From Idiomarina tyrosinivorans (lineage in GTDB: Bacteria; Pseudomonadota; Gammaproteobacteria; Enterobacterales; Alteromonadaceae): a stretch of 64,000 nucleotides of DNA. Shown one piece after another: positions 41,903 to 44,176 of this stretch. The DNA lies in assembly GCF_003987475.1 (NCBI RefSeq), contig NZ_PIQH01000004.1, forward strand, positions 62,001 to 126,000. Direction: 5' to 3'. Each line of letters opens with the position of its first letter. Position 1 is the stretch's first letter. A program made the translations under genes and the position numbers. Below the pieces are notes generated by a model. That model did no database searches, had not been told where the DNA came from, and saw only the letters and a list, made by a program, of their open reading frames with translations.

Positions 41903-42316
41903 ATGAAAAGCATTATTGTCGCACTCGCATTGCTATTTAGTGTCACCGCTGGCGCCGCGCAACAATCATTGTATCAACAGTTCGGTGGCAAACAGGGCAT
42001 CGCCGACATTACCGAAGAAATGCTATTCCAAGTGGGCGGTGATGAACGCATCGCACACCATTTTGAAGACGTCGATATCGTTCGCTTACATCGCTTACTC
42101 ACCGAACAGATTTGCCAAGTTGTTGGCGGACCCTGCGAATACACTGGCGATACCATGAAAGCCTCACACCGCAATCTCGGTATTAGTACCGGTGACTTTA
42201 ACGTATTGGTCGAGCACCTAATCCGTGCCATGGAAAAATTCGACATACCCACCAGTGCACAAAACCAACTGCTCGCCAAACTCGCCGCCATGCACAACGA
42301 CGTTGTCGAAGAATAG
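41903..42316 (+). CDS. Exported group I truncated haemoglobin
   Basis: A 137-residue protein. Residues 1-19 form a signal peptide (MKSIIVALALLFSVTAGAA), followed by a truncated globin fold beginning SLYQQFGGKQGI. The proximal haem ligand is His89 in MKASHRNLGIS, and the glycine motifs of the 2-on-2 fold are in place. A pair of cysteines (ICQVVGGPC) could form a disulfide, consistent with the periplasm. GGAG precedes the ATG. Truncated globins bind O2 or NO; an exported one next to a cupredoxin and a c-di-GMP enzyme suggests sensing or scavenging of a diatomic gas in the envelope. It is the last gene of the cluster. Confidence 0.9.
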   Translation: MKSIIVALALLFSVTAGAAQQSLYQQFGGKQGIADITEEMLFQVGGDERIAHHFEDVDIVRLHRLLTEQICQVVGGPCEYTGDTMKASHRNLGISTGDFNVLVEHLIRAMEKFDIPTSAQNQLLAKLAAMHNDVVEE

Positions 42317-42383
42317 CCACAGTCTCTGGTTGGCGCCAATTCTTTACTGCGGCGGTAAGCTTGGGCTCGCGGCATCGTCAGGG

Positions 42384-42711
42384 TTGGGGCTGATTGTTCT
42401 CTACCACGGCAATTAGCTTGGGCACGTCGGCATCGTGAGGGGCTGGAGGGCGCTTGGTGTGTAGGCGCTCAGAGGGTCATTGCACGGCACCCCGCCGGTT
42501 CACGAAGCTGGGGAAAAAGCCGCTCAAGCTCATCCATGAGGCGCTTAGTCTCCGGCCGTCCATGGCCGGAGATACTTTTTCTCCAGCTTCGCGCCCCAAC
42601 GTTGTGCATTACATGTGGGAGAGGTCGCGCCTACACCCCAAGCTAAGGGCTACGGAGAAGCGATGCCGATGCAACACCGAGCGCGCCGTGGCAGAGAACA
42701 ATCAACCCCAA
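42384..42711 (+). repeat. Palindromic unit 1
   Basis: A roughly 328-bp imperfect palindrome. Its outer arms 42384-42410 and 42685-42711 are complementary at 25 of 27 positions (the motif TGATTGTTCTCT is inside). Near the centre a 16-bp stem, 42504-42519 with 42575-42590, has one mismatch and includes GAAAAAG / CTTTTTC. It encloses a small hairpin (CTCAT at 42529-42533, ATGAG at 42536-42540) and a 9-bp hairpin (TCTCCGGCC at 42549, GGCCGGAGA at 42564). This gives a cruciform or three-way-junction shape. Confidence 0.8.
42549..42580 (+). terminator. GC hairpin plus T-tract in palindromic unit 1
   Basis: A perfect 9-bp stem (42549-42557 with 42564-42572) with loop GTCCAT is followed by TACTTTTT. 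Read on the plus strand it would terminate transcripts coming from the globin gene, whose stop is 233 bp upstream. No other terminator is seen before it. Confidence 0.5.
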
Positions 42712-42761
42712 GCAGGCTGTCCGAAGCTATTGGATTGCGGCTAATAGATAAAGGCTGATAC

Positions 42762-43067
42762 TTCTTTACTGCGGCTTTCCGCGATGGTGGGCGGCATCGC
42801 TTCTCCGCACCTATTTGGCTCGGGGTGTGGGCGCGTTTTCCTCGATATTGATTAGCGTGTCGTTGGGGCGCGGGGGCTCCGGTAAAAAGCATCTCTGGCC
42901 AGGGAGGGCCAGAGACTGAGCGGCCATGGATGGCTCGAGCGTCTTTTTACCGGAGACACCGTGAACCGACGGGACGCTGAGCACCAATCACCCCAGCGCC
43001 CACACCCCGAGCCTTTCCCCCAACCCTCACGATGCCGCGAGCCCAAGGCTTCGGCCGCAGTAAAGAA
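42762..43067 (-). repeat. Palindromic unit 2 (inverted relative to unit 1)
   Basis: A roughly 306-bp imperfect palindrome. Outer arms TTCTTTACTGCGG (42762-42774) and its complement (43055-43067) match perfectly; an 18-bp perfect pair follows further in (42817-42834 with 42996-43013). The central stem CTCCGGTAAAAAG (42877-42889) pairs perfectly with 42943-42955. It encloses a 9-bp hairpin (42892-42900 with 42907-42915) and a small one (GCCAT 42923-42927, ATGGC 42930-42934). The order of the two inner hairpins is reversed relative to unit 1. Confidence 0.8.
42884..42915 (-). terminator. GC hairpin plus T-tract in palindromic unit 2
   Basis: Read on the minus strand, TCTCTGGCC and GGCCAGAGA form a perfect 9-bp stem, followed by TGCTTTTT. 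It would terminate ychF transcripts, whose stop is about 170 bp upstream on that strand. It mirrors the structure in unit 1. Confidence 0.5.
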
Positions 43068-43084
43068 TTGGCGGGCTTTTAGTG

Positions 43085-44176
43085 TTATACGTTGAAGCGG
43101 AAGTGGATAACGTCGCCGTCTTTGACGATGTACTCTTTGCCTTCTAGTCGCCATTTGCCGGCGTCTTTTGCGCCTTGTTCGCCGTTGTTGTTGATGAAGT
43201 CATCAAAGCCAACGACTTCGGCACGAATGAAGCCTTTTTCGAAATCGGTGTGGATTCGGCCTGCGGCTTGTGGTGCGGTTGAACCGATTCTTACGGTCCA
43301 AGCGCGCACTTCTTTTTCACCGGCGGTGAAATAGGTGTGTAAGGATAGCAATTCGTAGCCGGAACGGATTACGCGGTTTAGACCGGGCTCTTCAAGGCCT
43401 AATTCTTCAAGGAAGACTTCTCGGTCTTCGTCTTCAAGCTCAGCCATTTCAGCTTCAATTGCTGCACAAACTGGCACAACGATCGCGTTCTCTTTGCTTG
43501 CGATGTCGCGAACTTGATCAAGGTACGGGTTATTTTCAAAGCCGTCTTCATTAACGTTCGCAATGTACATTGTTGGCTTTAAGGTCAGCAGGTTAAATGA
43601 GCGAATGGTGGCTTTTTCGTCGCTACTGAGGTTCACTGAACGGGCCATATCACCGTTATCAAGGGCCGGTTTTAGCTTCTCTAAAACGGCAATTTCTGCT
43701 TTTGCCTGCGCGTCGCCGCCTTTGGCGCGTTTACCTAGGCGGTGCAAGGCTTTATCGACGGTATCTAAGTCTGCAAGAGCTAGTTCGGTGTTAATGGTGT
43801 CGATGTCGTCAGCGGGGTTAACGCCGCCTGCTACGTGAACAATGTTGTCGTTTTCGAAACAGCGAACAACATGACCGATAGCGTCGGTTTCACGGATATT
43901 GGCAAGGAATTGGTTACCTAGGCCTTCGCCCTGTGAGGCACCTTTGACTAGGCCGGCTATGTCGACAAATTCCATCGTCGTTGGAATAACTCGCTGTGGG
44001 TTCACGATGCTCGCTAACTGGTTGAGGCGAGTGTCTGGGACGGGTACCACGCCAGTATTCGGCTCAATGGTACAAAACGGAAAGTTTGCTGCTTCAATGC
44101 CTGCCTTAGTTAGGGCATTGAACAAAGTCGATTTTCCGACGTTGGGTAAACCAACGATTCCGCATTTAAAACCCAT
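43085..44176 (-). CDS. ychF: Redox-regulated ATPase YchF (OBG family)
   Basis: A 363-residue P-loop ATPase of the OBG GTPase family that prefers ATP and binds ribosomes. G1 [15 protein letters not shown] is at residues 8-22, G3 in [17 protein letters not shown], and the altered specificity motif NVNE at about 205 explains ATP use. A coiled-coil region and a C-terminal TGS domain ([15 protein letters not shown], end FRFNV) complete it. It starts 11 bp after pth and points into the palindrome block. Confidence 0.98.

Follow-up and report, generated by a model that had tools for sequence, protein, structure and literature searches.

Dispersed inverted dimers of a TwoAYGGAY-like RNA module, a putative CsrA-binding repeat, at gene ends in Idiomarina tyrosinivorans

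REP sequences, REPINs, and BIMEs, the repeats that go with RAYT transposases, are extragenic, palindromic, and arranged in inverted pairs. A different kind of element is the TwoAYGGAY RNA (RF01731), in which two GGA-loop hairpins sit within an enclosing stem. TwoAYGGAY was reported in a 2010 screen (PMC2864571), and matches to the binding motif led to the proposal that CsrA binds it (PMC4333381); the Rsm/CsrA consensus is printed as A/UCANGGANGU/A (PMC6849547). RF01731 and rsmX belong to one Rfam clan, CL00106. The literature found, as far as its text was consulted, contained neither a functional test of TwoAYGGAY nor a description of dispersed inverted dimers of it, and searches on Idiomarina repeats, on CsrA together with repeats, and on the loop string together with palindromes gave no lead. 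Here, we describe a block of DNA that represents a genuine dispersed RNA repeat of the TwoAYGGAY type and that looks functional. The binding of such RNAs by CsrA is an idea already proposed; what is new is their occurrence as inverted dimers dispersed over gene ends.

The block can be set beside several described systems. Like REP, REPIN, and BIME sequences, it is extragenic, palindromic, and present in inverted pairs; however, it is much longer, lacks a GTAG end motif, and shows RNA-type covariation, and the IS200-like gene of the same genome has different REPs. It shares with the CsrA-sequestering small RNAs of the CsrB/RsmX type the presence of GGA in hairpin loops, but it carries two such loops per unit instead of many, occurs in dispersed copies, and has no promoter signal. 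The rrA, rrB, and rrF RNAs of the Escherichia coli ribosomal RNA operons are CsrA-interacting RNAs that come from reading past a terminator, as is proposed here for the units; in contrast to the present family, they stem from three near-identical loci behind ribosomal RNA genes, and the parts of the report consulted do not mention an inverted dimer (PMC8144298).

The element occupies positions 42334 to 43073 (about 740 bases, with no strand assigned) of the window, by which we mean the whole stretch of 64,000 nucleotides that was analyzed. It lies between a globin gene on the plus strand (41903 to 42316, with its stop at 42316) and the convergent ychF gene on the minus strand (43085 to 44176, with the gene end at 43085). 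A previous sequence-only reading had described a double palindrome of 738 bp at 42335 to 43072, made of two diverged inverted copies of one unit, enclosed by an inverted repeat of 55 bp (about 50 matches), flanked by convergent stops, and devoid of coding capacity. Our analysis bears out this description with slightly different limits. The left arm of the terminal inverted repeat (42334 to 42389, plus strand, 56 nt) is 91% complementary to the right arm (43018 to 43073, minus strand) with which it pairs. Within the block, unit A is a palindrome of about 317 nt (42395 to 42711) whose minus strand is the RNA-like strand bearing GGA, and unit B is a palindrome of about 306 nt (42762 to 43067) for which this is the plus strand. 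The end arms of the first palindrome map to 42384 to 42410 and 42685 to 42711, inner arms were found in both palindromes, and the block matches its own reverse complement at 69%, which identifies the two palindromes as inverted, diverged copies. The spacer between the units (42712 to 42761, no strand) is highly variable among copies, with changes in 22 of 50 columns in the bins covering 42716 to 42765. Folding of the block gave z-scores of -17.0 as DNA and -21.8 as RNA, values reached by 0 of 20 shuffles in each case, and units A and B, taken as one RNA, are able to pair with each other. Open reading frames of 60 to 133 amino acids overlap the block or its edges; because the copies carry indels within these frames, there is no sign of coding in the block, and a coding element was rejected. 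Last, GGCGGGCTTTTA at 43070 to 43081 (no strand) is apparently half of a former convergent terminator.

The core of unit A (42501 to 42593, minus strand) is a TwoAYGGAY-like module of two hairpins, with the loop CATGGACG at 42557 to 42564 closed by 8 further base pairs and the loop CATGGATG at 42531 to 42538 closed by 2. The two-hairpin core of unit B (42871 to 42961, plus strand) has the loop CAGGGAGG at 42900 to 42907, again closed by 8 further base pairs, and a second CATGGATG loop at 42925 to 42932, closed by 2. All four loops contain CANGGANG, with GGA in the hairpin loop. There are 21 8-mers of the form CANGGANG in the window, and the only two that are closed by at least three further base pairs both lie in the element.

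A pattern scan of named genomes returned 22 hits, 15 with an outer stem of 8 to 32 perfect base pairs and 7 with a stem of at most 6, the limit between the two groups (at least 8 against at most 6 bp) having been set after the data were seen. Six of the long-stem hits came from five Idiomarina species, four from Marinobacter, two from Ningiella, and one each from three other proteobacterial records. The first loop, which was absent from the search pattern, fits CANGGANG in all 15 long-stem loci. These 15 hits, together with window units A and B and a G257 locus, served as the 18 training sequences of a covariance model termed R1, the E-values of which are rough. As R1 was trained on both window units and on loci from five species of Idiomarina, its hits in these places are to some extent built in, as are the scores of units A and B themselves (80.8 and 77 bits). 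Run on 63 sources, which were mostly the best-scoring R1 hits among the matches listed and not a random sample, and whose orthologous loci are not independent, the model gave 125 matches, 120 of them distinct. Among 113 distinct R1 hits, CANGGANG fitted the first loop in 106 and the second in 109, counts that are favored by the conserved loops of the training set, while both N positions vary; the nonfitting loops include shorter versions, for example CAGGACG, and a few that are broken. The loop variation falls mainly at the positions left free by the CsrA consensus.

We then related R1 to the Rfam families. RF01731 had no match in the window at its gathering cutoff (43 bits), and none to the window element in its locus, L001, at E ≤ 1 or E ≤ 10. 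On L036 and L190, two R1 members, the Rfam model scored 31.6 and 31.0 bits, respectively, both below the cutoff of 43; the sub-threshold match on L036 was seen among the loci with weak DNA matches. A scan at E ≤ 0.01 found RF01731 in 45 of 118 family genomes, 29 of which had it above the cutoff, and in none of 14 control genomes, with no match in the genome of the window. Conversely, at two loci where RF01731 exceeds its cutoff, R1 matched strongly at the same place and on the same strand (L054, 76.5 bits, E 1.6e-19; L056, 70.1 bits, E 1.2e-17), showing that the two families are related; on 37 sources R1 gave 28 matches at E ≤ 0.01, and most loci besides L054 and L056 had a much lower score or no match. 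Both loops of unit A fit AYGGAY (AUGGAC and AUGGAU), and those of unit B fit by half (AUGGAU and AGGGAG), as CAGGGAGG fits CANGGANG but not AYGGAY. The family resembles TwoAYGGAY in its two GGA-loop hairpins within an enclosing stem and in the coincidence of R1 and RF01731 at some places and strands. It differs in that the window element lies below the Rfam model, that the units mostly form back-to-back dimers at gene 3' ends, that the loops stray from AYGGAY, mostly within CANGGANG, and that a 740-bp block has been amplified in the window genome. In other genera (L071, L072, L075, L080, L087, and L061), TwoAYGGAY units are repeated in one orientation, mostly at distances of about 0.3 to 0.7 kb, and are followed by a second hairpin of the GTCCAGAGGGAG...CTCCCTCTGG type. 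A Yersinia small RNA, Ysr224 (RF02770), matched five of eight loci (L147, L150, L190, L036, and L143) at 19.7 to 30.6 bits, below its cutoff of 70, and in each case antisense to the match of R1 or RF01731 at that locus; this points against a GGA-strand reading and might reflect a distant relative read from the other strand.

The stems of the family bear on the level at which selection acts. In an alignment of 113 distinct R1 hits, itself fitted to the R1 model, standard pairs made up 95.5% of cells as compared to 60.7% after shuffling and 40 to 44% after sliding by one column, and the covariation score was 0.880 as compared to 0.211 and 0.14 to 0.19, respectively. Two further measures were hardly above chance: pairs changed on both sides (30 of 33 versus 27.4 in shuffles, reached by 8 of 500) and pair types (104 versus 102.7, reached by 191 of 500). 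The outer stem contained 69 G-U but only 8 A-C cells. The third helix had 19 A-C and 1 G-U, which came from its innermost "pair," corresponding to loop positions 2 and 7 of CANGGANG and not to stem. In the stem beyond the model columns, counted in the 72 of 104 hits that kept a stem (32 failed the stem criterion), the ratio of G-U to A-C was 91:27, with more G-U in 48 hits and fewer in 8. Because an A-C cell reads as G-U from the complementary strand, such an asymmetry is unexpected from a DNA hairpin or from the opposite transcript. Moreover, for 106 of 120 hits the GGA strand gave the more stable RNA of the two, and the window genome showed the same for 23 of the 24 units examined (A, minus strand, 11 of 12; B, plus strand, 12 of 12), according to energies that include loop terms. 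Together, the stem covariation, the excess of G-U over A-C, and the stability of the GGA strand point to selection on the RNA of one strand. The block is probably, as judged from its sequence, a copy of a dispersed TwoAYGGAY-like RNA repeat, its units being putative CsrA-binding modules in 3' untranslated RNA that have been amplified in this genome. CsrA binding is the leading reading for the units, and a csrA gene is present in the genome.

The principal alternative is that the block is a non-autonomous DNA mobile element, similar to a MITE or a REPIN, that merely lands at terminators and whose hairpins serve a DNA transposase. The copies in the genome (2.43 Mb in 21 contigs) agree with it: there are 12 near-full copies, the window copy included, in unrelated flanks, which removes the possibility, raised in the sequence-only reading, that the block has no second copy. 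The other 11 match the window copy at 91 to 95%, and the mean identity among the 12 is 93% (range, 92 to 96%). Besides these, the genome has one A unit on its own (L013) and, where contigs begin, four half copies, and R1 detects 29 units in it. In favor of selection on the RNA, the cores are variable at 5 of 193 columns as compared to 136 of 545 elsewhere in the 12 copies, with core intervals that were set after the data had been seen; these conserved cores could partly stem from recent copying or gene conversion. The terminal inverted repeat also fits a mobile element, as does a terminator tag, AGGCACAAAAAAGCCCGC, of which 10 of the 12 exact matches in the genome adjoin copies; the tag may travel along with the element or be a target that it prefers. 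The related string GCGGGCTTTTTTGTGCCTG, with one mismatch allowed, occurs 14 times in this genome, while 2 of 18 relatives have a single match each; at L110 (about 1000 to 1060), a terminator with this tag stands without the element and may be an empty target or a site after copy loss. Two pairs of contig ends (L007/L111 and L008/L013) have common flanks of about 100 to 130 bp beside copies, perhaps the ends of larger repeats, and an Rfam scan of nine stretches near contig ends with copies matched no known RNA.

The absence of the element at this site in relatives likewise agrees with mobility. Empty sites, which the sequence-only reading had suggested looking for, do exist: in 16 of 18 same-genus relatives, the site between ychF and the globin gene consists of only about 40 to 70 bp with a hairpin, and the element is absent, while the other two (L098 and L109) have a different neighbor at ychF. 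As read by eye, the hairpin is followed by a T run in 14 of the 16, the exceptions being L099 and L104. R1 units are nevertheless found in most sister species, namely in 14 of 19 genomes of the genus, the window genome included, at 8 to 32 each, and in 21 of 39 genomes overall (E ≤ 0.001 in both). As five genomes of the genus (G004, G005, G012, G013, and G017) have no unit at this threshold, the units are not essential. In a YchF tree, these five include a well supported clade of four, and the window genome forms a long branch beside this clade, with weak placement (0.215). Weak DNA matches in other genomes have the core alone in common, and these cores have two hairpins, CATGGATG-like loops, and a long outer stem that differs by locus. 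In the sister species sampled, the outer stems are particular to each locus, whereas the window genome has near-identical full-length copies, a contrast that suggests recent amplification or homogenization.

Other observations disagree with the mobile-element explanation. No target duplication was detected in nine copies, in which the longest shared word averaged 3.8 for own pairs and 3.4 for mismatched pairs, and a classic transposon with target duplication was therefore rejected; of the hallmarks of a MITE, the block has terminal inverted repeats and multiple copies but, in these nine copies, no target-site duplication. A transposase search with PF01797, which covers the IS200-like family only, found one gene, and its surroundings are unlike the element. 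This IS200-like (RAYT-type) gene (L141, 1176 to 2000) is flanked by its own GTAG-type REP-like repeats, and a RAYT/REPIN origin was rejected because no GTAG-type REP is common to the gene and the element. A plasmid- or phage-borne element was also rejected, there being no match in plasmids or phages; a scan of viral contigs gave no lead. Furthermore, the G-U over A-C asymmetry is unexpected of a DNA hairpin, and several species have units at certain shared sites. In the sample of loci, this holds for the L011 copy, whose neighbors we take to encode a DUF885 protein and aconitase and whose site also bears units in a further five genomes of the genus, and for the L002 copy, with one such genome; the sample contained no counterpart of the remaining copies. 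On balance, we consider a mobile element of this kind rather unlikely. The sequence-only reading had offered a non-autonomous mobile element in a safe site or a duplicated structured element. The multicopy nature of the block, its location at gene 3' ends, its absence at this site in most relatives, and its duplicated structure are supported, while classic transposon behavior is not; the sequence-only reading also contained neither the CsrA-type hairpins nor the genus-wide family, the units of which show RNA-type, strand-specific selection.

The genomic position of the units raises a second alternative, a bidirectional 3'-end structure that acts as a terminator or exonuclease barrier for convergent genes and in which the loop sequence is incidental. 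Among the 10 copies in the window genome with both neighbors visible, 9 lie between convergent genes and 1 between codirectional genes, by a simple choice of open reading frames. Over all sources, 79 of 81 element sites have both neighbors, and we counted 36 convergent, 43 codirectional, and 0 divergent sites, in a tally that uses the same simple choice, takes the halves of a gene-enclosing pair as two sites, and includes orthologous loci, which are not independent. Because convergent and divergent neighbors are equally numerous on a circular chromosome, 36 versus 0 is far from chance even with many orthologous sites. (Duplicates L154, L155, and L167 were left out of the site, terminator, beyond-model stem, strand-stability, and promoter counts, whereas the pair count merged duplicates by position.) The avoidance of divergent genes suits a 3'-end structure, as does the window site itself, where the element replaces the ychF hairpin of the relatives and an apparent half terminator remains. 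However, the end of a hairpin needs no loop sequence, yet the loops are strongly conserved, and 7 of the 10 copies in the window genome retain a separate terminator-like hairpin no more than 150 bp from the element. For the other genomes, an intrinsic terminator is missing within 160 bp at 57 of 81 sites, but it is also missing at 984 of 1260 random places in the same loci, which favors neither the RNA-module nor the terminator reading. We regard a pure 3'-end structure as improbable. A neutral remnant or chance palindrome deserves practically no credence: the spacer and outer arms do vary freely among copies, but it is contradicted by the number of copies, the z-scores of the fold, the covariation, and the conserved cores, and the copies elsewhere in the genome had already refuted it.

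Among 39 pairs of neighboring units at most 500 bp apart, 36 lie back to back with their GGA strands outward, 2 are both on the plus strand, 1 is both on the minus strand, and 0 face inward. Promoter scores, calculated with generic weights, gave no signal in 36 inter-unit spacers (means of 5.0 and 5.4 as compared to 5.8 in shuffles), and divergent small-RNA genes driven from the spacer were rejected because these scores lie below those of the shuffles. Five further back-to-back pairs, 0.96 to 1.65 kb apart, enclose genes. These are a HigB toxin gene with a 144-aa partner without Pfam match (L175, 6263 to 7462); a similar partner without a HigB frame of at least 70 aa (L147, 1501 to 2650); a ParE-like toxin and a Phd/YefM-like antitoxin, both below the Pfam cutoffs (L178, 1580 to 2660); similar frames, as compared by eye (L208, 15909 to 16960, the same place as L167); and an IS110-family transposase gene (L193, 6202 to 7941). 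By eye, the spacer of L152 seems to hold a toxin-antitoxin relic, and an inverted pair of GTAG-type REP-like sequences (GTAGCCTGATGC...) lies within the spacer of an inverted dimer at L143 (1353 to 1500).

Under our preferred reading of the block as a dispersed RNA repeat with putative CsrA-binding modules, the lack of a promoter signal in the spacers suggests that the RNA comes from transcription past the flanking genes. Such read-through RNA would contain a unit in GGA orientation: starting from either gene of a convergent pair, it would cover the nearer unit in antisense and the farther one in the GGA sense. The sense unit would then fold on its own outer stem and offer its two loops to a CsrA dimer, and the outcome could be a stabilized transcript 3' end or a low-level CsrA decoy. 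Pairing between units A and B of the window element may compete with the folding of each unit and could hide the loops. The adjoining terminator-like hairpin seen beside 7 of 10 copies may cut off the transcript of the neighbor; if it were active in both directions, the element would lie in the 3' untranslated RNA of one neighbor only.

Taken together, the 29 units of the genome could buffer free CsrA. We entertain, with considerable doubt, the broader idea of a genome-wide distributed CsrA decoy, in which unrelated genes would carry tens of two-site modules in their 3' untranslated RNA in place of a central CsrB-type RNA, the transcription of these genes would itself set the level of free CsrA, and the modules would spread and be refreshed like mobile repeats. 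If CsrA does bind, a global regulator would be controlled from tens of gene ends. The family also represents a case of a structured RNA that behaves like a dispersed repeat, and it offers many natural variants within one genus that has both unit-bearing and unit-free species.

RF00018 had no match above its cutoff in the 19 genomes of the genus and sub-threshold matches in 5. The best of these (31.7 bits) was found in the unit-free genome G017, where a stretch on the minus strand of L213 (about 1490 to 1810) contains 21 A(N)GGA motifs in 310 nt and, to judge by this density, is probably a CsrB-type RNA below the Rfam cutoff. In the 965,540 bases scanned, which comprise parts of genomes only, the next-best stretch had 12 A(N)GGA motifs in 300 nt as compared to 20 in G017.
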